Origin: a virus
Virus record (IMG/VR): IMGVR_UViG_3300033571_015661
Coordinates: 1 to 26,349 of that record
Strand: one strand, 5' to 3'
DNA length: 26,349 nt
The translations under genes and the position numbers were made by a program. Below the pieces are notes generated by a model that saw only the letters and a list, made by a program, of their open reading frames with translations, had not been told where the DNA came from and did no database searches. Of this stretch, positions 3,636 to 24,128 are shown in pieces. Position 1 is the stretch's first letter; each line of letters opens with the position of its first letter.

Positions 3636-6044
3636 ATGGATAAGGATAATTTGGAAATATTGGATAATTGTATTAATTGTGGAGTAAATGCTTCTAACAA
3701 TGATTCATCAATGCTACCTATAGATACATCTTATAGACCAATGCCTACTCCTACTTACATAATGGATAGAGCAAGACCTATAGATGATAGACCAATGCCT
3801 ACTCCTACTTACATAATGGATAGAGCAAGACCTATAGATGATAGACCAATGCCTCTTATGCCTTCTTTAGATTTTGATTTAAAGTACATATATATTAAAA
3901 ATATAGCATATAAAAAAGAAACATTTTATAGCAATGATTTACAATATAGGAATAAATTAAACAATACAAATCAAAAGAATGCGTCTAATATTATATTAGA
4001 GTATGATAATATTGGGGATACCTACTCTGATGAGGATTTGTATTACATGGATAAAGTATTCATAGATAAAAATAATTTAGGAACTAATGTAATAAATTTA
4101 AATTACAAAAAGTTGCAAGATAGTTCATTAGAATTAATTCCAAACTTTTATAGAATATTGCCTGAAAAGAGAATTATATTGGATAATGAATTATGTTCTA
4201 ATATTGATTGTGATTTTTCATATTTCGTAGATACTGATTTTGGAAATCCTGAAATAGTATATCCTATAGGAACATTCTTCAGAGTAGCTAACGGAGTTTC
4301 AGTCAGTTCTCCTTGTGATCAACAGATTTATTTTGTTACAAATGGAAATTGTATATGTCCTATACCTAATAAGCAGACTTTACAAGTTATGCTTATAGAA
4401 AGGGGAAAAGTCATACAAAGTGTATTTGTTATAGAACAATCAGAATTTACTTATTTTGAAGTATTAGAATCATGTTTAGATAGAACATCTGAATGGATTC
4501 CGAGATTTGAAATAGATTCAGGATGTAAGACTCCTGATTTAGAAATTGATTTAAGTGCTTTAGATAGAATTCAAATACCAAAATTACCTGATGTTATTCA
4601 AGGAGCAGCAGGAGCAGCAGGATCAGCAGGATCAGCAGGATCAGCAGGAGCAGCAGGCCCTGCGGGAGCAGCAGGATCTTCAGGTAAGGATGGTAAAGAT
4701 GGTAAAGATGGTAAAGATGGTAAAGATGGTAATGATGGTAATGATGGGGTATGTCCAAATTGTCCAACACCTACGCCTACGCCTACTATTTTAACTATAT
4801 CACCTACATCTACAATACAAATTACACCAACAACAACTCGAATACCTCGTCTAACACCAACACCAACACCAACATTTGTAATTACAGCAAGACCAACATT
4901 AACACCCGATGTAGTAACTTGTGAATGTTATGATGGATATATTGTAAATGCATCAGGTTTCTTCTACGAAGATTGTTTAGGAAATGTAGTAACAAATACT
5001 TTGGGAAATGTGGGAGGAAATGATCCTATATGTTTCAATGTTAAAAAACCATATTCGTCAAATATAGTTGCATTCCAAATATCTAATAATTGTTCTTGTA
5101 GTAGTACAGGTACTTCAACTACTCCGACTCCTATTACCCCGACTCCAACTTTACCTGTAAACTTAATAAAATATTATGAGCTGTCAGGATGTAGTAATAC
5201 TGAATATGCATATACAACTATCGATCCTACAATGGGAGTTGGTCAAAGATACATAAATCCGTTAACGGGAATTATATATACATACACAGGTGCTCCACCT
5301 CTACTTCAACAACCTACATCCTATAATGGAAGTATCCAAATTGTTAGTGGAAAGCAATACTGCTCTAATTCAGATATAGCAAATCCTACAACTCCACCTC
5401 CGCAACCTACTCCTACTACTATAACAGAATCTAAGTTATCATATAATTTATTTTTATGTGGAACCAATATTACATCAAATGAGAGAATCGTATATACAGG
5501 TACTTACAATGGTGGAGAAGTTATAAAAACGTCAAATGGTAAATGCTACACAGTATCATCGGGTACTTCATCACAGCCGCCTACTTTAAGAGTAATAGCG
5601 AGTTATAGCACATGTATGGAATGTAATCCTATGGTAACAACTTCAAGACCTCCTATTACACCAAGACCTACTCCAACTCCTACACCTACACCAATACCGA
5701 CATCTCCCGTAGGTATTGTAAATTGTGAGTGTTATGATGGATATATTACAGATGATTCAGGATTTTTCTATGAAGATTGTTATGGCAATAAAATAACAAA
5801 TTCTATAGGAAGAGAAGTAAATAATTCAATATGTTTTAATATTCAAAAACCATATTCTTCAAATATAACATCGGTACAATTATCAGAAAATTGTTCTTGT
5901 GGAGGTTTATATGATCCCAACACACCTCAAAATCCTGAAATAGTTCCTACAACAGGAGTAGGCATAGGAACAACGTCAGGTGATAATGGAAATACTTCGG
6001 ATGTGCTACCGCCAAATGAGTTAAGGATAGATAATTTTAGATAA
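3636..6044 (+). CDS. Collagen-like, Pro/Thr-linker, Cys-rich modular virion protein
   Basis: An 802-residue mosaic protein. Residues 34-69 are two identical 18-residue copies starting RPMPTPTYIMD. About 75-320 is a globular region with several cysteines. Residues 323-371 are sixteen Gly-X-Y triplets (GAA/GSA, then GKD/GND), expected to form a collagen-like triple helix. Pro-Thr linkers follow at about 377-413, 495-506, 585-595 and 675-690. Between them are two copies of a Cys-rich module (428-488 and 697-755, each starting C-E-C-Y-D-G-Y-I and ending C-S-C), one YYEL-type module (513-576) and a more distant relative (601-663). The layout of stalk, linkers and small disulphide-capable domains suggests a fibre or surface adhesin. 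It lies between baseplate genes. The linker and YYEL modules recur in the gene at 12348. Receptor binding is inferred, not shown. Confidence 0.82.
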   Translation: MDKDNLEILDNCINCGVNASNNDSSMLPIDTSYRPMPTPTYIMDRARPIDDRPMPTPTYIMDRARPIDDRPMPLMPSLDFDLKYIYIKNIAYKKETFYSNDLQYRNKLNNTNQKNASNIILEYDNIGDTYSDEDLYYMDKVFIDKNNLGTNVINLNYKKLQDSSLELIPNFYRILPEKRIILDNELCSNIDCDFSYFVDTDFGNPEIVYPIGTFFRVANGVSVSSPCDQQIYFVTNGNCICPIPNKQTLQVMLIERGKVIQSVFVIEQSEFTYFEVLESCLDRTSEWIPRFEIDSGCKTPDLEIDLSALDRIQIPKLPDVIQGAAGAAGSAGSAGSAGAAGPAGAAGSSGKDGKDGKDGKDGKDGNDGNDGVCPNCPTPTPTPTILTISPTSTIQITPTTTRIPRLTPTPTPTFVITARPTLTPDVVTCECYDGYIVNASGFFYEDCLGNVVTNTLGNVGGNDPICFNVKKPYSSNIVAFQISNNCSCSSTGTSTTPTPITPTPTLPVNLIKYYELSGCSNTEYAYTTIDPTMGVGQRYINPLTGIIYTYTGAPPLLQQPTSYNGSIQIVSGKQYCSNSDIANPTTPPPQPTPTTITESKLSYNLFLCGTNITSNERIVYTGTYNGGEVIKTSNGKCYTVSSGTSSQPPTLRVIASYSTCMECNPMVTTSRPPITPRPTPTPTPTPIPTSPVGIVNCECYDGYITDDSGFFYEDCYGNKITNSIGREVNNSICFNIQKPYSSNITSVQLSENCSCGGLYDPNTPQNPEIVPTTGVGIGTTSGDNGNTSDVLPPNELRIDNFR
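3733..3854 (+). repeat. Perfect 54-bp tandem duplication within the collagen-like gene
   Basis: Bases 3735-3788 and 3789-3842 are identical 54-mers, and a third partial copy continues to 3854. The period-54 match starts at 3733. In frame it encodes two copies of an 18-residue Pro/Asp/Arg-rich unit. Complete nucleotide identity between copies points to a recent duplication or to repeat homogenisation. The length is a multiple of three, so copy-number changes would keep the frame. Confidence 0.95.
4602..4748 (+). repeat. Collagen-like Gly-X-Y triplet repeat (16 triplets)
   Basis: A run of 9-base units encodes first GAA/GSA/GPA triplets (repeating ggatcagca-type units) and then GKD/GND triplets (repeating ggtaaagat-type units, 4683-4748). 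The near-identical DNA units make this stretch prone to slippage. A 67-codon frame overlapping it in another phase, rich in Gln then Met/Val, is a by-product of the repeat. Confidence 0.9.
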
Positions 6045-12347: not shown

Positions 12348-15242
12348 ATGGATTTTATAGCATTCGAAATATTTTATTTCTATTCTGACCAAGAAAAGGA
12401 AGCATACTTAAATAGTCTACAATTAAGAGATAGGATAACCTATCAACGTAGATATGATGCTTGGTTTTATGATCCTCTAAATCCATTAACAAACGGATCT
12501 CCATCAACCTCTACAGGAACTACATTAACTTCTCAGAGCGTAGTTGTTTATTATGAATTAGCATCATGTGGAGGTACAGGATATGCATTTACAACGATAG
12601 CTCCCGCAGGTATTAATCAAGTTTATATAGATAGTCAAAGTGGTACTTTTTATATATACACAGGTAGTGCAAGATCCCTAATAGAACAACCTACAGGATT
12701 TAATGGTAGTTTACAGATAGTGAGTGGTAGATTTACGTGTAATCAAGTTACTATCACACCTACGATTGTATCACCAACAGCAACACCGACACCAACACCG
12801 ACACCTACACCTGTACCTACTATTGTTACTATATCACCTACGTCTACAACACAAATTACACCAACAAGTACTCGTATACCAAGTGTAACACCTACACCAA
12901 CACCATTACCAACGAGTACATATTACGTACTTTCATCTTGTAATGGTAGTGGAGATATAATAACAACACAAGTTCCGCAAACAAATCAATTATATGTTGA
13001 TTTTTCAGAAGTTGATACAGGAATATTCTACACATATAATGGAAATACTGTTAGATTAACCTCTACAGAAGGTAGAAATTTTATAAATAATTTACAAAAA
13101 GTTGCGGGAAGAACTAATTGTAAAGATGATAGAAGACCTGTAGCAGGTCTCATAAGTGTAAATCTAAAATTTGTTAATTGTAATATTGAGGAATCATTAA
13201 GTTCTAATCTATTACCTAACAGTTTGAGTGTAATTACGCCTAATTCATCTCAAATAAAAACAATACCTTTAGGATTTGTAAATTTAGGTAAAAATAATAC
13301 TGTACTATTTCCAAATTCTTATAATAAGAATATTGATGAAATATTTACAAAAGCAGGAGTATATACTATTAATTTTCCAAGTATTGCTGATTATAATACT
13401 CCGAGTCCGTTAACATTTACATTAAATTCTGTTGCTGATACTCAGGATTTAACTGTATCGTATACAAAGGATTGTGATGGTGAGACTATTATAGATCCTC
13501 CTCCTGTTCCTGATAATGTATATACAACATTTAGTGGATTAATATCTCCTGATTTACAGACTGCTTACAGATCTCGTTGTTCAAGTGGTGATTATAAACC
13601 GGGATTGTTCGTGCCGGGGGAAATCCTCTTGAACGGACAACTCATAGGAAGAGGAACAGCAAGTGTTTCTTTACAAATCGGTAGTAGTTATACCGTAGAA
13701 TTTAGAAAACCATCTCATCCATATTTCACATTCAGTGATGGTAGTCCTAATACATATACATTTGTAGCATCATCTGCAACTACGAGGATAGAGAGTTTAT
13801 TTACACCTTCTTTTGCAAAAGTTACAGGTGGTCTATCAGTGGTTACAAATATAACACCTAATATAGCGGGTGTTAACTTTAATCCAAAGATTTATATAAG
13901 TAATATAGGTCAGATTGGGGAAGGTTCTGTTAATGATTATCAATTAGAGCAGGGACAATATACCTTATACTTCGAGCCTATAAAAGTTGCGGGGATGATA
14001 TTTATCACTCCTAAACAAAGAACTATAACCATAGGACTTTGTGATACTTTAAAAATAAGTGAGACTTATACAGGAGTAGCATTACCAACAAATTATTGGC
14101 TCAAAAAAATAGATTCTATAGATCAAATGAAATATAACTCTGTTATAACAAGAGGAATGTTTTCAAATGGTATAGCTAATATGGTTTCTTTTTATAAATC
14201 AAGTATATCAGACTCTTTAGATAATTTCTATACGCATGTATACCATGAACGAATAACCCATCCTACATCTTCTATACAATTTAGTTTAGCTTATGGTCAT
14301 TCTGAAGGTTCAGGATCAAATGATGAGGGAGGTCAGTACAATGATACCCCTACAAGAGCCATATTTGGACAGTACCGAAGTATAATCGTAGGAAATACTT
14401 CTAATACCATAAATCTATCAGGTACTCCTACAAAGCATTTCTATGCTATTTCTTATCAGAAAGACAGAAGAGATACAAGAGCTGATTATAATGCTTTAGA
14501 ATTAAACATAGCACATTTATCGGGATCTCAATTTATAAGTAGTTCTAATATGAGATATCATACAGGATCTAATGTTAGATTGGGGGGTAGAGGCAAAGTT
14601 TTACGTTTAATATCAGATTATAAAATAAACAATAATCCGAGTAGAGCAACACCATCAGCTCCATTAGAATATAATATAGTATCAGGTTCTATAGAAGATG
14701 GAGTCTACAATAGCAATAATCCTCATTATTTTGGCAAACTGTATCCAAGTTTAGGATTAGTATTACTCGATGCTAATAAACTTGATGTATCTGCATCATT
14801 AGGTACTGTAACTACTCGTGAAATAGATGGTAAGAATCAATTAAAACTATTTACAGCTATTTCAGGTGCTGCTTTATACACAGATATAAGTGGGGATAAA
14901 TTAGGTATGAAGGCAAGATCTACTAAAGAGGAGTTATCTTTTTACTACTATATACATGTAAAGAACAAAGAATTTAACTATTCAAATAATCCAAGTATAT
15001 ACAATACAGATGGTATTGATATATTAAAGTATGGAGTTGGTAGTAATCAGATAGTATCTTCCCAAATTTTAGATAACACTGCTGTTATAAATACTAATTT
15101 TATAAGTAGACCTACTACATACATAACTACTATTGGATTATATGATGAAAATAGAAATTTAATAGCTGTTGGTAAGTTAAGCAATCCTGAATTGAATAAT
15201 TTTACTGAGGAGGTAATGTTCACTGTAAAACTAAAGTTTTAA
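12348..15242 (+). CDS. Modular tail protein: adhesin-like N-terminus fused to a copy of the 360-residue family
   Basis: A 964-residue protein. Residues 68-132 and 192-259 are two divergent copies of a YYEL/YYVL module, closely related to the one in the collagen-like protein at 3636 (both contain an E/Q-QPT-x-x-NGS-x-QIVSG block). Between them is a Pro-Thr linker (about 138-190), including a TISPTST-x-QITPT-x-TRIP segment also found in that protein. About 265-580 holds several beta-rich stretches, possibly Ig/carboxypeptidase-like repeats. From about 602 to 964 the sequence is homologous to the whole 360-residue protein upstream and ends in the same 40-residue block (925-964, YITTIGLYDEN). It looks like a fusion in which a conserved attachment part carries exchangeable surface modules. 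The start at 12348 has an AGAGG about nine bases upstream, one of the few Shine-Dalgarno-like sequences here. Confidence 0.75.
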   Translation: MDFIAFEIFYFYSDQEKEAYLNSLQLRDRITYQRRYDAWFYDPLNPLTNGSPSTSTGTTLTSQSVVVYYELASCGGTGYAFTTIAPAGINQVYIDSQSGTFYIYTGSARSLIEQPTGFNGSLQIVSGRFTCNQVTITPTIVSPTATPTPTPTPTPVPTIVTISPTSTTQITPTSTRIPSVTPTPTPLPTSTYYVLSSCNGSGDIITTQVPQTNQLYVDFSEVDTGIFYTYNGNTVRLTSTEGRNFINNLQKVAGRTNCKDDRRPVAGLISVNLKFVNCNIEESLSSNLLPNSLSVITPNSSQIKTIPLGFVNLGKNNTVLFPNSYNKNIDEIFTKAGVYTINFPSIADYNTPSPLTFTLNSVADTQDLTVSYTKDCDGETIIDPPPVPDNVYTTFSGLISPDLQTAYRSRCSSGDYKPGLFVPGEILLNGQLIGRGTASVSLQIGSSYTVEFRKPSHPYFTFSDGSPNTYTFVASSATTRIESLFTPSFAKVTGGLSVVTNITPNIAGVNFNPKIYISNIGQIGEGSVNDYQLEQGQYTLYFEPIKVAGMIFITPKQRTITIGLCDTLKISETYTGVALPTNYWLKKIDSIDQMKYNSVITRGMFSNGIANMVSFYKSSISDSLDNFYTHVYHERITHPTSSIQFSLAYGHSEGSGSNDEGGQYNDTPTRAIFGQYRSIIVGNTSNTINLSGTPTKHFYAISYQKDRRDTRADYNALELNIAHLSGSQFISSSNMRYHTGSNVRLGGRGKVLRLISDYKINNNPSRATPSAPLEYNIVSGSIEDGVYNSNNPHYFGKLYPSLGLVLLDANKLDVSASLGTVTTREIDGKNQLKLFTAISGAALYTDISGDKLGMKARSTKEELSFYYYIHVKNKEFNYSNNPSIYNTDGIDILKYGVGSNQIVSSQILDNTAVINTNFISRPTTYITTIGLYDENRNLIAVGKLSNPELNNFTEEVMFTVKLKF

Positions 15243-15245
15243 GAT

Positions 15246-16916
15246 ATGTATGAACTTTCAGTATTTGAAAAAATAAGGAAATCTGATTATACGATACTTC
15301 CATATGAAGCTAATAAATCATATTCAATAGATTCCAATAAAGCAAAATCTTTAGGATATTCATATAAAATAGCTAATTATTTTAAAGATTCGTTACCTAT
15401 AAGTTCATCTAAGTATTATGCAGTAAATGCACCAACAAGTTCAGATGGTTCTTATAATTATCTTAATTGGAGAGTTATAAATCATATGTATTATAGAAAT
15501 GCATATGATTCTTATGAATCTTGGGAAGGTAATTCTAAAAGATATACTGAAAAAAGATTATTTACAACGTCAAGTATTATATCTGCTCCATATTTTGATA
15601 TGGGAGATGGTTTTAGGAAAGGTTCTGTAAGAATAACAAGTAATAATTTAGATTTAAGAGATGATTCTAACAATAATATTTATGATTATAGTATAAATTC
15701 ATCGAGTCTTGTAGATTCTAACTATTTAGATGCCTACTTTGGATTTCAGAACTTATATCATCATACTAAAAAAGGTTTTGGAACAGGTATTTCAAAAGAT
15801 TTCTCATTTGAATCGAATACTATTGGAGAATCATTGCATTTCAAAACTTATAATGTAGGTTTAAGTGATGGTATAAAAATAAATAATACGGGTAGTGGTG
15901 CTAAACTTGATTTCATAGGAACAAGTTACGCAGAAATACCACATTATGAGCAGTTATCTTATGAATTATCAGAAGATTTTACATTAAGTTTTTGGTTACA
16001 GGCTCCGATTAGCCAAAGTAACACTACATTTACTACTAATTCTATAATAACTAAAAAAAGTTATAGTAATATTATACAATCAGGCGAATTTGATGTAATT
16101 ACTGACAGTGGATACTTGAAAAGAAACTACATAAGCTCAAGTATTTCATATACTCCTGTTGAATATTATCCATATGACGTATCGATATACAACCAAACAG
16201 CAGGTTCTGACGTTGGTAAAATACTTTTTAAAAGATCTGATGGTGTAAAAACTATGTCTGTAAAAAGCATAGCATCTATAAATGATGGAAATTATCACCA
16301 TGTATGTGTAACCAAAAGTAATAATTTATTTAAATTATACATTGATGGTGCATTACAAACATCGGCTTTTGATGTAAATAATGAGCCTACAAATGCCCAT
16401 ACAATAATTTTGGGAGCTGACGATAAGAAGGGAACAAAGCAATATTTAGGATCTATAGATGAATTAAGATTCTATAGTAAAGCTATGACAAATACAGAGA
16501 TATCTTCATCTTTGGCAAACTCTTCAAATGCATTAGCATATCAAACTATAAATGTTGGAAATGTATTCTATAGAAGAGGAGAAGTTATTATAACATCACC
16601 TATAAAAAAATATCATAATATATTAAAAAATCAGCAGTGGAATTTATCTTATAAGAATAAATATGTAATTTATGAATATGAAACATTAGTTAAGATACGA
16701 GCAGGTTCGTTTAACAAAACTATGAATCCAACATCTATTCAGAGTCCTAAGTCAAATTTATATCTTAATGATTTTACGGGATCATTAGCTCCTTATGCAA
16801 CAACAATAGGATTGTATAATAAAAACTTTCAATTAGTTGCTGTAGCTAAATTTGGAAGACCTCTCAAAATGAGAGATGATGTTGATATAAATGTTATAAT
16901 TAAAATGGATTATTGA
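15246..16916 (+). CDS. LamG-domain tail protein with shared C-terminal module
   Basis: A 556-residue protein starting three bases after its neighbour's stop. Residues 220-425 form a LamG/concanavalin-like domain: SEDFTLSFWLQAP (242-254), then NDGNYHHVCVTKS (346-358), LFKLYIDGAL (361-370) and YLGSIDELRFYSKAMT (400-415). These are the standard beta-strand signatures of LamG-type glycan- or protein-binding folds. The C-terminus (about 481-556) carries VKIRAGSFN and then a 40-residue block from 517 (YATTIGLYNKN, LVAVAKFGRP). It is the same length and position as the ends of the two upstream paralogues. An FYRRGEVIIT stretch at 441-450 precedes it. I read it as a tail or baseplate decoration protein whose LamG domain could contact a host surface or another virion protein. 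The binding partner is unknown. Confidence 0.78.
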   Translation: MYELSVFEKIRKSDYTILPYEANKSYSIDSNKAKSLGYSYKIANYFKDSLPISSSKYYAVNAPTSSDGSYNYLNWRVINHMYYRNAYDSYESWEGNSKRYTEKRLFTTSSIISAPYFDMGDGFRKGSVRITSNNLDLRDDSNNNIYDYSINSSSLVDSNYLDAYFGFQNLYHHTKKGFGTGISKDFSFESNTIGESLHFKTYNVGLSDGIKINNTGSGAKLDFIGTSYAEIPHYEQLSYELSEDFTLSFWLQAPISQSNTTFTTNSIITKKSYSNIIQSGEFDVITDSGYLKRNYISSSISYTPVEYYPYDVSIYNQTAGSDVGKILFKRSDGVKTMSVKSIASINDGNYHHVCVTKSNNLFKLYIDGALQTSAFDVNNEPTNAHTIILGADDKKGTKQYLGSIDELRFYSKAMTNTEISSSLANSSNALAYQTINVGNVFYRRGEVIITSPIKKYHNILKNQQWNLSYKNKYVIYEYETLVKIRAGSFNKTMNPTSIQSPKSNLYLNDFTGSLAPYATTIGLYNKNFQLVAVAKFGRPLKMRDDVDINVIIKMDY

Positions 16917-16928
16917 TATTGAAAAAAT

Positions 16929-17132
16929 ATGAAAAATAAATTAAAAGTAGAAAAATATATAAATAGTAACAGTACTAATATATTAAATATATTTGAAGAA
17001 GATTATGATTTTACTAATTTTATAAAAATAAAAAATAAATCATATAAGAAAATACATAATAGTGCTGATAAACTAAACAATAAAACAAAAAAAAATTACT
17101 ACAATAGAATAATTGATATTGATGAAGATTGA
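16929..17132 (+). CDS. Small Lys/Asn-rich hypothetical protein
   Basis: A 67-residue open frame, very rich in Lys, Asn and Ile, with an acidic Asp/Glu C-terminus. The start is preceded by GAAAAAAT and lies 12 bases after the LamG gene stop; the next gene starts 18 bases after its TGA. Nothing in it matches a family I know and no membrane segment is present. It is accepted as a gene because it fills the space between two well-supported genes on the coding strand. Composition alone cannot prove translation in DNA this A/T-rich. Confidence 0.55.
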   Translation: MKNKLKVEKYINSNSTNILNIFEEDYDFTNFIKIKNKSYKKIHNSADKLNNKTKKNYYNRIIDIDED

Positions 17133-17150
17133 AGGTATTAAAAATTAATT

Positions 17151-17708
17151 ATGATAAAACTAAAAAAACTTATAGAAGTATCGGATGGTTTGCAATATCA
17201 TATTGACAATAAAATACCTATAATGGAAAATATATATAGGTATTCATCTGATAAATTTTTAGAATTATTTGAAGAATGTCGTAAATTACACTACGAAGGA
17301 AGTGTAAAATTTTGCGAAGATGACATAAACTTATTAGAAACTACAGATATAGGAAAATATGGTATATACGAGGGAAATAAAGTTCCATTGGATATGCCTA
17401 TAGCAGAATCAGAATATAAAGGAAAAGATGTAGATTTAGGAAAACCTAAAAGAGGAGGAAGTAAGAAGTTTTATGTATATGTTAGGGATCCTAAATCAGA
17501 TAATATTAAGAAAGTATCCTTTGGTGCAAAGGATGGGGGAGGAGCATTAGCAGTTAAGTTGGAAGATCCTAAACGTAGGAAAGCATTTGCTGATAGACAT
17601 AACTGTAGCGATAAAACAGATAGAACATCTTCAGGATATTGGGCTTGTAGGATAACTAAGTATTGGAAATCTTTGGGAGGAAGCAGAAACTATTCAGGGT
17701 ATTGGTGA
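17151..17708 (+). CDS. Conserved phage protein of unknown function (KKFYVYVRDP / HNC-type)
   Basis: A 185-residue protein with two parts. Residues 12-86 (GLQYHIDNKIPIMENIYR, then LETTDIGKYGIYEGNKVPLD at 62-81) match the front part of a family I recognise from large tailed phages. Residues 96-185 are basic and highly conserved: KKFYVYVRDP (105-114), KKVSFGAKDGGG (120-131), DPKRRKAFADRHNCSDK (139-155) and GYWACRITKYW (162-172). The Cys, His and basic residues suggest nucleic acid or metal contacts, but I know of no demonstrated function. The N-terminus contains L-I-E followed by Val (residues 7-10), a near-match to a prohead protease site. It follows the tail genes and precedes small unknown genes, so it may be a virion-associated protein. 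Confidence 0.7.
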   Translation: MIKLKKLIEVSDGLQYHIDNKIPIMENIYRYSSDKFLELFEECRKLHYEGSVKFCEDDINLLETTDIGKYGIYEGNKVPLDMPIAESEYKGKDVDLGKPKRGGSKKFYVYVRDPKSDNIKKVSFGAKDGGGALAVKLEDPKRRKAFADRHNCSDKTDRTSSGYWACRITKYWKSLGGSRNYSGYW

Positions 17709-17729
17709 TTCAAAATTAGTTTAAAAAAA

Positions 17730-17990
17730 ATGAATAATTTATACTCAGAGTACAAAAATACGGATAATTATAAACTGAGAGAGTTCTCAGAAGATATTGA
17801 TGAAGATAAATTAGTATGGCATAGAGATTTAGAAGATAGATTACTTAAAGTTACTAATAATAATAATTCATGGAAAATACAAATAGACAATGAATTACCA
17901 AGAGATATAGACCATGTATTTATTCCTAAATTAACATATCATAGATTGATAAAAGGAGAAGGAAACTTAATTATTAGTATAACATTTTAA
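17730..17990 (+). CDS. Small conserved phage protein, possibly cupin-like
   Basis: An 86-residue protein. LREFSEDIDEDKLVWHRDLED (residues 16-36) and FIPKLTYHRLIKGEGNL (64-80) are blocks I recognise from short proteins encoded by many marine and T4-like phages. The arrangement of H31 and E35 followed by P66, H71 and G76 recalls the two metal-binding motifs of the cupin fold, and the length suits a single minimal barrel. That comparison is inference; there is only one His in the first motif where classical cupins have two. It starts 21 bases after the previous stop, with an A-rich leader (AAAAAAA before the ATG). Function unknown. Confidence 0.68.
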   Translation: MNNLYSEYKNTDNYKLREFSEDIDEDKLVWHRDLEDRLLKVTNNNNSWKIQIDNELPRDIDHVFIPKLTYHRLIKGEGNLIISITF

Positions 17991-18000
17991 AAAAACTTAT

Positions 18001-18537
18001 ATGAGTGATATAAAACTAAAACCTATTGCAGAGGGAATTATTGATGACTTCATCAATAAGAAAAGCAAATATGATTATCGTAAATTAGATTATGAAAGAG
18101 TCACAAGTATATTACAAAGTCGAATTAAACCTATTAAAATAAAACATTGGGGAGTTTATTCTGTAAGATTCGGTAAAAAGTTTGTAGCTGTCCCTGAAAT
18201 TAAATTAGAAAAAGATAGTTTTGAATATATAATAAAAAGACCTAATTCAGTAAGAGAGTCAGGTGACAAAATATTTAGTATAGATTTATCAATCCAACCT
18301 GATAATATAAAATTGCATATGGGTGGTAATAATTTAAATTATTATAATATATATTACGAACTCATTGATGACATATCAGATAGTTTAGAAAGTACTTTAA
18401 AAAATGCATCCAACTATTATGATAGTTTAGATGATAGTATTATTTCTAAAATAGTAAAAGTATTTAGAATAAAACTACAAGATGCTGTAGAGGGTAGAGA
18501 TAAATCTATAGAGTCTTATGACAATTTCAAAGTATAA
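18001..18537 (+). CDS. Hypothetical protein with possible prohead-protease site near its N-terminus
   Basis: A 178-residue protein that I do not recognise. It is charged, lacks membrane segments, and is probably mixed alpha/beta with a helical C-terminal third (about 115-178). Residues 9-12 read I-A-E-G, which fits the (L/I)-x-E followed by A/G pattern cut by T4-type prohead proteases. That places it alongside the 657/735-residue pair as a possible capsid-packaged protein. The gap to the upstream gene is ten bases and the leader is A-rich. The motif is short and can occur by chance; without the neighbours it would not be noticed. Confidence 0.62.
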   Translation: MSDIKLKPIAEGIIDDFINKKSKYDYRKLDYERVTSILQSRIKPIKIKHWGVYSVRFGKKFVAVPEIKLEKDSFEYIIKRPNSVRESGDKIFSIDLSIQPDNIKLHMGGNNLNYYNIYYELIDDISDSLESTLKNASNYYDSLDDSIISKIVKVFRIKLQDAVEGRDKSIESYDNFKV

Positions 18538-18563
18538 AAAATAATTAGTTATAATCTAAATAT

Positions 18564-18980
18564 ATGTGGATTTACAAAAATATTGAAATAGATGATATTT
18601 CTAAAATGCCTATTGATATTTCTAAAAATATATTTGGATTTGTATATGAGATTACTCATGTTCCAAGTGGTAGGAAATATATAGGTAAGAAAGTATTGTA
18701 CTTCAATAAGAAACTACCTGCCCTGAAAGGACAGAAAAAATCAAGAGCAGTTGTAAAAGAATCCAATTGGTTAAAATATTATGGATCTAACGATACTATA
18801 AAAAATTTAATCAAAGATGGTAAAATTTTGGAATTTAAGAGAGAAATACTTACATTTGCCTATTCTAAGTATGAGTTAACATATTTAGAGACGAAATATC
18901 AGTTTCTAAAAGAAGTTTTGGAAGATGATAATTATTTGAACAATAACATATTGGGAAAATTTTACAAAGGCAAAATATGA
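18564..18980 (+). CDS. SegE-like GIY-YIG endonuclease
   Basis: A 138-residue protein with a single GIY-YIG nuclease domain, the fold of T4 Seg homing endonucleases. The first motif is GFVYEI (25-30), replacing GIY. R37 and K38 precede Y-I-G-K-K (39-43). ESNWLKYYGSN (66-76) follows, and YLETKYQF (107-114) supplies the probable catalytic glutamate E109. YLNNNILGKF (124-133) closes the domain. No separate DNA-binding domain is present, as in the small SegE-like proteins of many large phages. The gene overlaps the primase start by four bases (ATGA), implying translational coupling. It could be a homing endonuclease or a domesticated phage nuclease. All residues I expect for activity appear present, but activity is inferred. 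Confidence 0.82.
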   Translation: MWIYKNIEIDDISKMPIDISKNIFGFVYEITHVPSGRKYIGKKVLYFNKKLPALKGQKKSRAVVKESNWLKYYGSNDTIKNLIKDGKILEFKREILTFAYSKYELTYLETKYQFLKEVLEDDNYLNNNILGKFYKGKI

Positions 18981-19903
18981 ATAGTTACACCTCAGATCAA
19001 GTTACAAAGTTACAAGTACTAAATAAGTATTTAGGACAACACTCTCCTAAAAGTTCTACAAATGTTGCATTTAATTGCCCATTCTGTGGACATCCAAAAA
19101 AGAAATTAGAGATAGATGTACAGAGTGGTTTGTGGAATTGTTGGGTATGTAAGACAAGTGGATACTCCATAACTAAGTTACTAAAGAAAGTAAATGCTTC
19201 TGTTATTGATTTAACTAAACTTTCTAAGTTAGAAAGTAGTAATGTAAATTATAGTAAAGTATCTAACGAAATAGTTAGTTTACCAAATAATTTTATACCA
19301 TTTAGCAAATGTCAAAATTCTAATAATATTCATAAATTATTAAAATATTTAGAATTAAGAAATATATCTGAGCAAGATATAGTAAAGTATAACATAGGAT
19401 ATTTAGATGACAGTATGAATAGTACAATCGTAATACCAAGCTACGATAGTCAGTTCAGATTGAATTATTATATATCTAAGAATATATATACAAATAGATA
19501 TAATAATCCTAAGTGTTCAAAAGATAAAGTATTTTTAGAATCTTTTGTAGATTGGAATTATGATATAGTAATTGTGGAAGGTATATTTGATGCTATAGCA
19601 GTAAAAAGGAATGTTATTCCTTTGTTTGGTAAATTTTTGAATGATAGAGTAAAGGAGAAGATAGTTAGTTCGTCTTCCCAAAATTTTTATATAGCTTTAG
19701 ATGGTGGAGAGTATGACTCTATATTTAAGATAGCTAAATATATTATAGAAGTTGGAAAAAACGCTTATTTTGTCAACATTCCAATAGGAGAAGATCCATC
19801 ATCTTTAGGGAATAAAACTATTTGGGAATTTATTAGTAATAGTGAAAGAATAACTGAAAACGATATATATAAATACAAGTTATATGCAAAATTAGACATT
19901 TAA
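18977..19903 (+). CDS. DNA primase (T4 gp61 / DnaG type)
   Basis: A 308-residue primase that would make RNA primers at the replication fork, typically with a hexameric helicase that is not in this window. The N-terminal zinc ribbon has C34, C37, C55 and C58 (NCPFCG, then WNCWVC). The TOPRIM domain has VIVEGIFDAIAVK (198-210) with the conserved Glu201 and Asp205. ALDGGEYDS (240-248) stands where the usual D-x-D motif lies, and IGEDPSSLG (270-278) follows. The second acidic residue of D-x-D is Gly here (D242-G-G-E-Y-D), so the metal-binding pair may be shifted to E245 or D247. T4 gp61 is 342 residues. The start is fixed by the ATGA overlap with the nuclease stop. A replication gene inside a run of virion genes is a mild oddity. 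Confidence 0.88.
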   Translation: MNSYTSDQVTKLQVLNKYLGQHSPKSSTNVAFNCPFCGHPKKKLEIDVQSGLWNCWVCKTSGYSITKLLKKVNASVIDLTKLSKLESSNVNYSKVSNEIVSLPNNFIPFSKCQNSNNIHKLLKYLELRNISEQDIVKYNIGYLDDSMNSTIVIPSYDSQFRLNYYISKNIYTNRYNNPKCSKDKVFLESFVDWNYDIVIVEGIFDAIAVKRNVIPLFGKFLNDRVKEKIVSSSSQNFYIALDGGEYDSIFKIAKYIIEVGKNAYFVNIPIGEDPSSLGNKTIWEFISNSERITENDIYKYKLYAKLDI

Positions 19904-19936
19904 CAATATACTTATATAAAAGAGTATAACATAGCT

Positions 19937-21910
19937 ATGAAGTATACATTTACAGAGAATTATATAAATAATATATTAAATATTCTAACGGAGGCAAAAG
20001 ATTATATAAAGCTAACGGAAGCAGTACCATATTCTAAAGCAAAAGAATATCTTAAAATAGAAAGAAGTCCTGAAGCAGAATCAAGAATCAAAGAAGTATT
20101 CAATAAATTAAAATCACTACCAAATGCACGTCAACTTGATAAACGTGGTTGGAGAATAGCATTTCCATATGCAGAGGACTCTACTGAATTTGAAATACAA
20201 TCTATATTAGAACCTTACGACTTCTCTATAAAAGATTACAAAGATGGAGTAGCATTAGATACCAAGAACAATAGAGAAATATCATTGGGGAAAGCATTAA
20301 ACATAGTTTCAAAAAAAGAACCTGATGCAAAAGATTTAATGGATAAATATGCAGCTATAAAAAGTAAAGGTGCTACAAATAAAGATGAGGACTTGATGAT
20401 TATATTTTCAAGTGCTAAATATGATATTATAGGAATGTCTACAGATAGAGACTCCTATTGGGACAGTTGTATGAATGTTATTAAAGGAAGCAATAGACAC
20501 TATATAAAGGCAGATATACGAGAAGGAAGTATAATATGCTACATAACAAGAATAGGTGATACTGATTTGAAAAAACCTTTAGGAAGAATATTAATAAAAC
20601 CATACTTAAATTCAGAAAATCCTAAAGATGTAATACTATATGCAGAATACAAAACTTACGGTTCTATACCAAATCCTGAAAAATTTATAGATATTGTAGA
20701 TGAGTATATGGAAAAAACTCAATCTATATCAGGAGTTTATGACAGATTAGGATGTTTATATAATGATAGTGAAAGAACTTCTGTAGAAAGTAAAGAAACT
20801 GTACAAAAAAGAGCATTAAATAAAGTAAAGGAAGGGAATAGTTTAACTTCTATGGAATTTGTATCTCTTCCATCAAAAAATAAAAAGATTTATATAGATG
20901 AATTGAATAAAGAGGAGAAAAGACTTTCAAAGGTAATATATTCATTTGCTACACAAAGTCAAAAGAAATTTTACATAAGAAGACGTTTAAAAGATGGGCA
21001 AGAAATAGAAGACTATGAATTTAAATCAGCACCTAAAGAATTAAAATATGAAATAATTGATTACAAATTAGAAAATGATGTAGGTAGCATATATCACTAT
21101 GAATTTGAAGCAGCAACCACTGAACAAAAAGATAGATATATAGATAAACAAATAGCAAAAAAGTTTATGGATATACCTGAATCGTATCTACAAGAATTAT
21201 CAGATAAGCAACAAAAATTTTATATAGAAAGGGTATTAGAGAAAGGTAAAAAATATTTTTCAAATTTTGAAATACGTTTAATGTCAGAAGACCAATTCCT
21301 AAACTATATATCTAATTTATACAAAAATAATGAATCTATATATCAAGATACGGCAGATAATTTATCAGGTAGAAATATGGAAATTTTAGTAGATTACATA
21401 ATAGAAAACCATATTCATGAGATAAGAAAACGTAGTTCTCGATATGACTTAACCGAAAAACAAATTGAAAAATATATAAATAAATTAATAGAAACAGACC
21501 AATACGAAGAATTAGTAGATTCGAATAATCTTGCTAAAGCATCTAAAAAAGACCAAGAGAGATATATTGATTATTTACTTTCTAAAGAAATTATCATACC
21601 TGATTGGATTATAGAATATGGAAATTCTAAACAAAAGAAAATGTATATTAATAGTAAATATGAAGAAGGATACAGATTAGAAACTAAAGACTTTATACAT
21701 TTGACACAAAATGAGATAGAAGAATATATAAATAGAAGAATTAAGATAGGATATTCATTAGCAGAGTATGAATTTGACGCAATATCATCAGAATCGAAAC
21801 TAAAATATATAGATAAAGTAATTAAGGAAAAAAAGCGATTAAAAGATTATGAATTGGAGATAGCAACTCCTGAGCAAAAAGAAAGATACAGAGAATATGC
21901 TAAAGATTAA
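19937..21910 (+). CDS. Repeat protein, paralogue 1: unknown N-terminal domain plus alpha-solenoid-like repeats; putative capsid-targeted protein
   Basis: A 657-residue protein. The first 30 residues contain two L-T-E/A sequences (17-20 and 26-29), fitting the (L/I)-x-E/(A,G) site of T4-type prohead proteases and resembling the short capsid-targeting peptides of T4 internal proteins. About 31-280 is a conserved domain, with GWRIAFPYAEDSTEFEIQSI (71-90), YDIIGMSTDR (162-171), YWDSCMNVIKGSNRHYI (174-190) and KPLGRILIKPY (213-223). I recall related sequences in large phages but no known function. From about 300 to 657 there are degenerate units of about 27-30 residues, patterned as F/Y-E-x-x-x-A-(T/S)-x-x-Q-K-x-x-Y-I-D, probably paired helices. 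The gene is followed ten bases later by its paralogue. Enzymatic activity of the N-domain cannot be judged; conserved Cys, His, Arg and Asp are present. Confidence 0.78.
   Translation: MKYTFTENYINNILNILTEAKDYIKLTEAVPYSKAKEYLKIERSPEAESRIKEVFNKLKSLPNARQLDKRGWRIAFPYAEDSTEFEIQSILEPYDFSIKDYKDGVALDTKNNREISLGKALNIVSKKEPDAKDLMDKYAAIKSKGATNKDEDLMIIFSSAKYDIIGMSTDRDSYWDSCMNVIKGSNRHYIKADIREGSIICYITRIGDTDLKKPLGRILIKPYLNSENPKDVILYAEYKTYGSIPNPEKFIDIVDEYMEKTQSISGVYDRLGCLYNDSERTSVESKETVQKRALNKVKEGNSLTSMEFVSLPSKNKKIYIDELNKEEKRLSKVIYSFATQSQKKFYIRRRLKDGQEIEDYEFKSAPKELKYEIIDYKLENDVGSIYHYEFEAATTEQKDRYIDKQIAKKFMDIPESYLQELSDKQQKFYIERVLEKGKKYFSNFEIRLMSEDQFLNYISNLYKNNESIYQDTADNLSGRNMEILVDYIIENHIHEIRKRSSRYDLTEKQIEKYINKLIETDQYEELVDSNNLAKASKKDQERYIDYLLSKEIIIPDWIIEYGNSKQKKMYINSKYEEGYRLETKDFIHLTQNEIEEYINRRIKIGYSLAEYEFDAISSESKLKYIDKVIKEKKRLKDYELEIATPEQKERYREYAKD
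20456..20518 (+). repeat. 63-bp block identical to 22428-22490 (copy in paralogue 1)
   Basis: This 63-base stretch encodes the YWDSCMNVIKGSNRHYIKADI region and is identical at every base, including third codon positions, to 22428-22490. Flanking DNA in the two genes differs at scattered, mostly silent sites. The identity suggests recent duplication or gene conversion in this part of the head domain. Confidence 0.9.
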
Positions 21911-21920
21911 ACATAAAAAT

Positions 21921-24128
21921 ATGAAAAATAATTATCTAAAAAATATATTAAATATTTTAACCGAAGCATATAACTATGTTAAACTTACGGAGGCAGTTCC
22001 ATATTCAGTGGCTAAAGAATATCTTGAAATAGAAAGAAGTCCTGAAGCAGAAACAAGAATCAAACAAGTATTCAGTAAACTCAAAGCATTACCAAATGCA
22101 CGTCAAATAGACAAGCGTGGTTGGAGAATAGCATTTCCATATGCAGAAGACTCTACTGAATTTGAAATACAATCTATATTAGAACCTTACGATTTCTCTA
22201 TAAAAGACTACAAAGATGGATTAGCATTAGATACTAAAAGTAACAAAGAGATAGCAATAGGTAAAGCACTCAACAAAATATCAAAAAAAGAACCTGATGC
22301 TAAAGAATTAATAGACAGGTATGCAGCTATCAAAGGTAAAGGTGCTACAAATAAAGATGAGGACTTAATGATTATATTCTCAAGTGCTAAATATGATATC
22401 ATAGGAATGTCTACAGATAGAGAGTCTTATTGGGACAGTTGTATGAATGTTATTAAAGGAAGCAATAGACACTATATAAAGGCAGATATAAAAGAAGGTT
22501 CGATAATATGCTACTTAACCACAATAAGTGACACTAATTTAAAAAAACCATTAGGAAGAGTTTTAATAAAACCATATATAAATTCAGAAAATAAAGAAGA
22601 CGTAGTATTATATCCTGAACTTAAAACTTACGGTTCTATACCAAATCCTCAAAAATTTATGGATGAAGTAGATGACTACATGGAAAAAACACAAAAGTTG
22701 TCTGGAAGCTACGAAAGATTAGGATGTTTGTATTCTGATAGTGAAAGAGTAGAAATTGAAGACAGAGAAACACTTGTAAAAAGAGCATTACAAAAATTAA
22801 AAGATGAAGAAGGATTGAGTAAAACAGAATTTGTATCACTTCCACTAAAGAATAAAAGACAATATATCGATAGATTAATAAAAGAACAGGTTAGACTATT
22901 TGATTTTCAGTATACGTTTGCATCACAGAGTCAAAAAAAACAATATATAAAAATAATTTTGAGTAGAACAAATTATGTAAATGAATTTGAATATAAAGGA
23001 GCACCTAAAGATTCTAAAGTATATATAGTAAATTATATAATAGATAATGGATTAAAGTTACAAAGATATATATTTGACGAGGTAACTCCTGAACAACGAC
23101 AGAGGTATGTAAGTATTAGGATGAATAATAATAATACATTAGAAGATTATGAATTAAAGATAGCAACTCCTGAACAAAAACAAAAGTATATAGATGTTAT
23201 AATAAACACAAAAGGAAAATTAGATAGAGATCAATTTGCAGCAGCAACAGAAAATCAAAAAGAAAAATATATAGATTCTGTATTAGAATTAGCTGAAAAT
23301 GATGCAGATATAATATTAAAAGGATATGAAACAATAGCAACAACAGAAAAACAACAATTAAAGTATCTTGATATATTGATTAAAAATGGTAGATATTGGA
23401 CTGATGAACTTGTTAAGTATTTGAAAGGTAAGGCAAAAGAAAAATATATTGATTATCTATTTGATAAAAAAATTGATCATTTATTAGATAATGTGAATGG
23501 TCTAACTGCTTCTGAGTTGGAAATAGCAACTCCTAAGCAAAAAGAAATATATATTGATACTATAATATCAAGGTATTCAAATACTAAACAAAAACTAAAA
23601 GAAAGAGAATTTAGAATAGCAACACCTAAACAAAAAGAAAAGTATATTGATTTAATATTAAAAGATAATAAAAGATTACAAAAACACGAATTTGATGGAG
23701 CAACACCTAAGCAAAAAGAAAAAGACATTACTTTCAAACTTAGTAAATTTGACGAATTATCTATAGATGAACTTGAATTTTTAACTCCTAAACAAAAATC
23801 AGAATATATAGATAATAGGTCAAATTCTCAATATCAACTTAATGATTATGAGTATGAATTAATGAGTAAGGAGCAATTAGATAAACATTTTACTAATCTT
23901 ATAGATAGTGGTAATTATATAGCTGACGAAAATTATAAATATGTAAGTGATGATATATTGTATTACTATATTAATAAAGTATTTGAAGAAAAAGGTAATT
24001 TAGATATTGAAGAAGATTCATTTAACGAAGCTCCTGAAGAGTTAAAAAATGTTATAGTTAAATTTAAAACAAGTAATAATTTAAAGCTCAGTGATGCAGA
24101 AAAAAAATACAAATCAAAAACAAAATAA
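21921..24128 (+). CDS. Repeat protein, paralogue 2 of the tandem pair
   Basis: A 735-residue protein from the preferred start at 21921. An upstream in-phase ATG at 21897 would overlap paralogue 1 and add eight residues absent from it. The 21921 start lies ten bases after the previous stop with an A-rich leader and restores collinearity. Residues 9-276 match residues 13-280 of paralogue 1 without gaps, about 84% identical by hand count (43 differences in 268). Both L-T-E/A sequences are kept (13-16 and 22-25). Residues 303-735 hold roughly fourteen repeat units, clearer than in paralogue 1. Several share the core ATPEQK or ATPKQK followed by YID (415-424, 536-546, 567-576, 593-599). The repeats match paralogue 1 only in pattern. 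So the head domain is conserved while the solenoid has been rebuilt, as expected if the solenoid chooses a partner. Confidence 0.78.
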   Translation: MKNNYLKNILNILTEAYNYVKLTEAVPYSVAKEYLEIERSPEAETRIKQVFSKLKALPNARQIDKRGWRIAFPYAEDSTEFEIQSILEPYDFSIKDYKDGLALDTKSNKEIAIGKALNKISKKEPDAKELIDRYAAIKGKGATNKDEDLMIIFSSAKYDIIGMSTDRESYWDSCMNVIKGSNRHYIKADIKEGSIICYLTTISDTNLKKPLGRVLIKPYINSENKEDVVLYPELKTYGSIPNPQKFMDEVDDYMEKTQKLSGSYERLGCLYSDSERVEIEDRETLVKRALQKLKDEEGLSKTEFVSLPLKNKRQYIDRLIKEQVRLFDFQYTFASQSQKKQYIKIILSRTNYVNEFEYKGAPKDSKVYIVNYIIDNGLKLQRYIFDEVTPEQRQRYVSIRMNNNNTLEDYELKIATPEQKQKYIDVIINTKGKLDRDQFAAATENQKEKYIDSVLELAENDADIILKGYETIATTEKQQLKYLDILIKNGRYWTDELVKYLKGKAKEKYIDYLFDKKIDHLLDNVNGLTASELEIATPKQKEIYIDTIISRYSNTKQKLKEREFRIATPKQKEKYIDLILKDNKRLQKHEFDGATPKQKEKDITFKLSKFDELSIDELEFLTPKQKSEYIDNRSNSQYQLNDYEYELMSKEQLDKHFTNLIDSGNYIADENYKYVSDDILYYYINKVFEEKGNLDIEEDSFNEAPEELKNVIVKFKTSNNLKLSDAEKKYKSKTK
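22428..22490 (+). repeat. 63-bp block identical to 20456-20518 (copy in paralogue 2)
   Basis: The second copy of the 63-base direct repeat, 1972 bases downstream of the first. A recombination between the two copies would fuse the head of paralogue 1 to the solenoid of paralogue 2 and delete the intervening sequence in frame. Confidence 0.9.

Follow-up and report, generated by a model that had tools for sequence, protein, structure and literature searches.

Shared N-terminal leaders as candidate capsid-targeting signals on accessory proteins of a T4-like phage group

In phage T4, the non-homologous internal proteins IPI-III and Alt carry a short N-terminal targeting sequence with L/I-x-E sites that is cut by the prohead protease gp21, as described in the available sections of PMC9026906 and PMC9958956. 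An N-terminal signal is also at work in phage P1, where the first 30 residues of DarB direct cargo to the head, and the available text of PMC9024508 gives no consensus among the N-termini of the Dar proteins. In the giant phages phiKZ and SPN3US, head proteins bear propeptides with several post-glutamate sites at which the phages' own prohead proteases cut, the phiKZ motif being S/A-x-E (PMC9026906, same sections). Finally, the polyvalent proteins, in the part of PMC5512222 consulted, are multidomain chains that are predicted to be packaged.

The window analysed here is the whole of a 26,349-base stretch of a viral record. Its positions 15,000-21,000 have no near DNA match in the phage collection, and the nearest isolated relative, judged by the protein encoded at 17151, is Flavobacterium phage immuto (host Flavobacterium sp. 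LMO8; homologue 54% identical). The genes around 17151 and 18001 are best explained as part of an accessory-gene interval of a T4-like phage that is kin to immuto (Table 1). Elsewhere in the window, the 802-residue protein encoded at 3636-6044, which combines a collagen-like stretch (GAAGSAG/GKDGKDG) with runs of TPTPTP, is flanked by baseplate-type genes. On the G008 contig, about ten successive short ORFs of the form MNKPECKTYxNGxKxWxLNGKxHREDGPA are found at approximately 100,064-107,984 (L114).

Table 1. Coordinates of genes, leaders and sites in the window.
Feature	Position	Strand	Profile match
185-aa protein; acidic N-terminal half (net -7), basic C-terminal half (+14)	17151..17708	+	phrog_7595 (basic half)
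Leader MIKLKKLI of the 17151 protein; leader type MIKLKEILQE / MIKLKPLVE also on relatives' unrelated proteins	17151..17174	+	
Named near match L-I-E/V, residues 7-10; not conserved	17169..17180	+	
VSDG, residues 10-13, where many relatives have I-S-E/G (strict motif in 10/36 clusters)	17178..17189	+	
PIAE/S joint, I84-A85-E86/S87, between acidic and basic halves	17400..17411	+	
86-aa protein, homologue of immuto 101829-102086; without strict motif	17730..17990	+	
178-aa protein, no assigned fold; four related loci in viral contigs, none in immuto	18001..18537	+	
Leader IKLKPIAEGIID of the 18001 protein, IAE/G at residues 9-12; counterpart IKLKPLVEGILK on G004_24922	18010..18045	+	
SegE-like GIY-YIG protein; interval landmark	18564..18980	+	PF19835, 1.3e-28
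DNA primase-like protein; landmark	18977..19903	+	phrog_47, 9.1e-35
Repeat-pair protein 1; leader with LTE/A at residues 17-20 and 26-29	19937..21910	+	
Repeat-pair protein 2; leader with LTE/A at residues 21-24 and 30-33	21897..24128	+	

The initial annotation had proposed a capsid-cargo cluster here on the strength of four-residue, T4-type protease motifs near protein N-termini, to be checked against the motif's frequency in a complete genome; that of immuto served as the test bed. The strict motif was defined as [LI]xE[AG] within residues 1-40, and [LI]xE was taken as the loose, or near-match, class. Translation of the ORFs bears out the positions given for the full match IAE/G (residues 9-12 of the 178-residue protein at 18001) and for the near match LIE/V of the 185-residue protein at 17151, which begins MIKLKKLIEV (L7-I8-E9/V10). 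The accompanying caution that each motif is weak alone was likewise justified, the strict rate being near background in immuto (16/228) and T4 (19/264). In immuto, later stretches of the same proteins, where these are long enough, gave 12/180 (residues 41-80), 10/130 (81-120) and 5/108 (121-160), so that N-termini are no richer than internal sequence; residues 41-80 gave 9/205 in T4, 8/105 in G003 (10/128 at the N-terminus) and 2/16 in the window. Three of the 17 window N-termini have the strict motif, namely that of 18001 and those of the paralogous repeat proteins at 19937 and 21897, and 17151 is not among them. Genes 17151-21897 thus compare with the other ten as 3/7 to 0/10 (p = 0.051), or as 2/6 to 0/10 when the paralogous pair is counted once (p = 0.125). 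The equal motif frequency elsewhere that had been named as grounds for refutation is largely what is seen genome-wide in immuto, and the bare-motif counts from the window, immuto, T4 and G003 do not establish a cluster. As a genome-wide marker the strict motif was rejected on this immuto result. Even in T4 a bare match is correct only about one time in three, since 6 of the 19 strict matches (IPI, IPII, IPIII, gp68, gp22 and gp23) are gp21 substrates as listed in the available sections of PMC9958956 and PMC9026906, the other 13 (e.g., helicase dda and terminase gp17) lying outside the known substrates. The near match LIE/V carries almost no information, because [LI]xE is present in 92 of 228 immuto N-termini. 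By themselves, the named motifs would not carry a claim of capsid targeting.

The whole leader of the 18001 protein (N-terminus MSDIKLKPIAEG; I9-A10-E11/G12) is a more distinctive feature. Its IKLKPIAEGII reappears as IKLKPLVEGIL at the N-terminus of an unrelated protein, G004_24922, which is the best match among 2,331 proteins outside the orthologues of 18001 (score 43 of a possible 58); the next unrelated protein scores 31. BLASTP of the two whole proteins found the leader stretch and otherwise only noise, and the score ratio of the 18001 leader was reached by none of 350 internal 12-mers versus 9 of 350 N-terminal ones. The two genes use different codons for five of the eight residues identical between the leaders and have unrelated upstream sequences. 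A by-eye reading of G004_24922 as "kinase-like" found no such family in profile searches and was not used. The window protein and its 97% relative (L082) have PIAEG, and the 65% homologues, three loci with nearly identical sequence that constitute the only diverged homologue (L083-L085), have PIADG, so the glutamate of the candidate cut site is not conserved (IAE/G becomes IAD/G). In T4 IPIII (MKTYQEFIAE), an aspartate at position 10 (P1) inhibits processing while targeting is still allowed, according to the available sections of PMC9026906. A profile search for further homologues of 18001 returned the same four loci only, and a PDB fold search (model pLDDT 67) gave nothing usable (best E 0.34). 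Profile searches with 17151, 18001 and 19937 gave no Pfam match above the cut-off and no match to NCBIfam.

Sharing of leaders extends beyond this pair. It was counted over all protein pairs without similarity beyond residue 28 in eight phage records, using an ungapped N-terminal score. At a score of at least 45 there were 23 N-terminal pairs versus one in each of two internal controls (residues 41-64 and 71-94), and at a score of at least 40 there were 39 versus 6 and 2. The method recovers IPII/IPIII in T4; in G010, sharing was not clearly above the control (2 versus 1 and 1), and some of the high-scoring shared N-termini are of other kinds, namely signal peptides, fibre proteins and, in T4, GIY-YIG proteins. 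A clear example is seen in G004, where three neighbours lie directly before the 17151 homologue (63993, starting MIKLKELLPISEG): 62195 and 63083 both start MIKLKEILQE, 63610 starts MMKLTTLLKE, and 63083 has an HD domain (PF01966, 5e-8). Another three neighbours, at 26584, 26967 and 27449, have a common MKTHKLKVTLNEIKRM..LAGI start and then diverge. In immuto, the leader-bearing products include gp099, which is the homologue of 17151, and those encoded at 103806, 111675, 112261, 113188, 114006 and 117631. In each of the seven leader pairs examined, 40 bases of upstream sequence show little or no resemblance (39-68% identity), and in the immuto pair MKKQILSEQF..LAGIITE, 9 of 20 identical residues have changed codons, which argues for conservation of the peptide rather than of the DNA. 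Thus, short leaders are found at the extreme N-terminus and are common to unrelated proteins of the phage group. Among the open-access papers searched, we found no account of shared leaders in such phages. The window has no sequence match to T4's MKTYQEFIAE, the nearest being a 793-residue protein of G003 (L010, 174-2555) that starts MKTYNLLIES, close to MKTYQEFIAEA of IPIII. This protein is encoded immediately before the 17151 homologue, and its C-terminal end has many repeats that look helical. A by-eye label of "ADP-ribosyltransferase-like" for G003_174, 97604 and 98275 matched no such family in profile searches and was not used.

In the 17151 protein, the leader and the strongest protease-like site are separate. 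Glutamate occupies the column of E9 in at most 2 of the 36 clusters of the family, and LIE/V is absent from the 91% relatives; as a cleavage site, LIE/V was rejected for this lack of conservation. When every column was scanned across the 36 clusters with the strict motif and a relaxed one ([LIVM]xE[AGS]), the best position was E86 (strict 22/36, relaxed 28/36), with glutamate in 30 of the 32 clusters covering it, followed by residue 74 (13 and 20) and residue 12 (10 and 10). In these alignments, the putative site PIAE/S after E86 is the family's strongest and most conserved protease-like site, and it is internal. The structure model dips to a pLDDT of 65 at residues 81-90, spanning this joint, and unrelated modules are inserted upstream of it in L053 and L061. 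Residues 85-167 match the profile of phrog_7595, which has no assigned function (E 1.1e-11); a viral protein annotated as PBSX XkdF also has a match to the C-terminal region, and a PDB fold search (model pLDDT 81) gave nothing usable (best E 0.70). Fused forms, in which the family stands behind other modules, are L057, L058, L061, L062, L035 and L040; they are 362-989 residues long, and several of their joints have an L/I-x-E site nearby. An [LI]xE lies near 215 of 471 module boundaries, where random placement within the same proteins gives 119.9 (sd 8.9); this excess is suggestive only, since the boundaries are non-independent, include truncated ORFs and repeat homologous proteins.

A conserved L/I-x-E site at the end of a leader is seen in the repeat pair and in neither 18001 nor 17151. 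All eight copies with a visible N-terminus keep [IV]L[TS]E[AG] and a second L-x-E-A, and the leaders preceding these kept sites differ in sequence and length. The copy number varies between relatives; in a close one, for example, three consecutive copies (L094, 5918-11763) come before the 17151 homologue.

The interval from the SegE-like gene to the terminase in immuto (100,831-119,000), which lies between the tail fibres and the terminase and is syntenic with the region of 17151 and 18001, was picked after inspecting the immuto match list, and its landmarks were then applied unchanged to G006. In immuto, the strict motif is found in 5/25 interval proteins versus 8/204 outside the interval and head genes (p = 0.007), and [LI]xE within the first 20 residues in 16/25 versus 33/204 (p = 1e-6). 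The G006 interval is enriched for the strict motif (7/31 versus 5/141, p = 0.0013), for the strict motif in the first 20 residues (6/31 versus 1/141, p = 1.4e-4) and for the loose motif (18/31 versus 24/141, p = 8e-6), as a replicate that is not fully independent because G006 and immuto share orthologues. Nearer to the window, neither G003 (strict 2/14 versus 6/107, p = 0.23) nor G015 (2/14 versus 0/18, p = 0.18) has an enriched interval by the strict or the loose motif. The landmarks are scattered in G008 and missing from G005 and G010.

A protease that could act on such sites is encoded by some relatives. The window's contig ends before the head genes and contains no protease; PF03420, the family of the gp21-type (T4-type) prohead protease, occurs in the records of 3 of 13 relatives and in the contigs of two of the five nearest relatives. 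Protease, scaffold and major capsid protein genes occur in both G003 and G015. In G015, which is 91% identical in 17151 and whose head genes were recognised from their likeness to those of G003 and immuto, they lie at 17174, 17967 and 18919, 16-20 kb downstream of the 17151 homologue at 658, and account for three of the five strict N-terminal matches of the contig. In G003, the protease (L098/L099, 19585-21303) is split by an intein-like insertion (LAGLIDADG_3, 4.7e-11; Intein_splicing, 1.4e-7) that leaves PF03420 in two pieces and is lacking from the G015 homologue.

Taken as a whole, these comparisons of sequence make T4-like capsid-targeting leaders on accessory cargo the best single explanation, and one that we regard as moderately probable; it is preferred because of the whole 18001 leader, the 17151 leader type and the repeat pair. 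Several interval proteins would then probably carry short N-terminal leaders of the T4 internal-protein kind, hydrophobic or basic and some 8-20 residues long (MIKLKxxL, IKLKPxxEG or a variable stretch ending in ILTE). Such a leader would dock its cargo on the prohead scaffold core, and the phage's S77 prohead protease would cut after (L/I)-x-E wherever such a site exists, so that the cargo would be free inside the head and could be injected along with the DNA. In 18001 the candidate is the whole leader IKLKPIAE/G (peptide MSDIKLKPIAEGIID). In 17151 the leader MIKLKKLI may serve targeting, and cutting would more likely take place at the internal joint after E86, not at LIE/V, and would release a basic domain of 99 residues. 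The proposed capsid-cargo cluster is thereby retained in part: the shared leaders, the repeat-pair sites and the immuto and G006 intervals speak for it, and the weakness of both named sites and the lack of enrichment in G003 and G015 speak against it.

Chance matches in Leu/Ile/Glu-rich, AT-rich N-termini would leave 17151 and 18001 as ordinary small late proteins without targeting peptides. Such a background is visible in the 7% of N-termini that match in both immuto and T4, in the many T4 matches outside the known substrates, in the poor conservation of both IAE/G and LIE/V, and in the G003 and G015 intervals; it fits poorly with the recurrence of the whole 18001 leader on an unrelated protein at a level unmatched by internal 12-mers, with the N-terminal excess of shared pairs and with the enrichment in immuto and G006, and we consider it unlikely. 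If promoter, ribosome-binding site and first codons were copied together as a gene start, or if translation starts had sequence preferences, shared N-termini could also arise without selection on a peptide signal. Some leader copies are indeed identical in DNA (G004 62195/63083), and MK- and MI- starts are common among the N-termini here. The dissimilar DNA upstream of the seven pairs, together with residues kept despite codon changes in the diverged immuto and 18001/G004_24922 pairs, makes this origin improbable. It is more improbable still that the leaders dock proteins for another assembly step (tail or baseplate) or at a membrane or replication site, as might be suggested by the leader-like N-termini beside baseplate genes in immuto (81525, MKLDLLKKLIKEAVKEAV) and at L083 5951, given that sites ending in L/I-x-E lie near the N-termini of the scaffold, major capsid protein and protease and that the enriched interval adjoins the head module.

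Should shared leaders prove to be a mark of packaging, genome sequence could reveal which proteins uncultured phages inject, and many late genes now annotated as "hypothetical" could be considered for a role in host takeover or counter-defence. The T4 targeting principle, tested on IPIII, would then extend to several leader types within one phage group. It is tempting to suggest, as a tentative and somewhat doubtful extension, that interchangeable docking leaders (MIKLK..L.E, ..RM..LAGI..E, FDLKKFL.E and KKS.L..IIKE) are swapped as cassettes between unrelated genes and load fast-changing takeover proteins into the head, and that cargo chains built like beads on a string are parted by prohead-protease sites.

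Among the known systems, the polyvalent proteins resemble the fused 17151-family forms L057, L061 and L062 in build, but their criterion of at least two effector domains per chain finds no counterpart here: nine of the ten relatives and neighbours scanned had no Pfam domain at E 0.01, and the tenth had weak matches. The several post-glutamate sites of phiKZ and SPN3US propeptides are what the E86 joint would imply, whereas the motif, the giant size and the other gene content of those phages set them apart. Like DarB of P1, the candidates described here would rely on an N-terminal signal, and unlike the Dar N-termini their leaders are common to unrelated proteins. The closest likeness is to IPI-III and Alt of T4. 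Here, several leader types occur per genome, the sites are variable or lost in homologues, and packaging is a prediction; shared with T4 are the short N-terminal leader, the L/I-x-E sites, the non-homologous cargo and, in relatives of the window, genes for a T4-type protease and scaffold.
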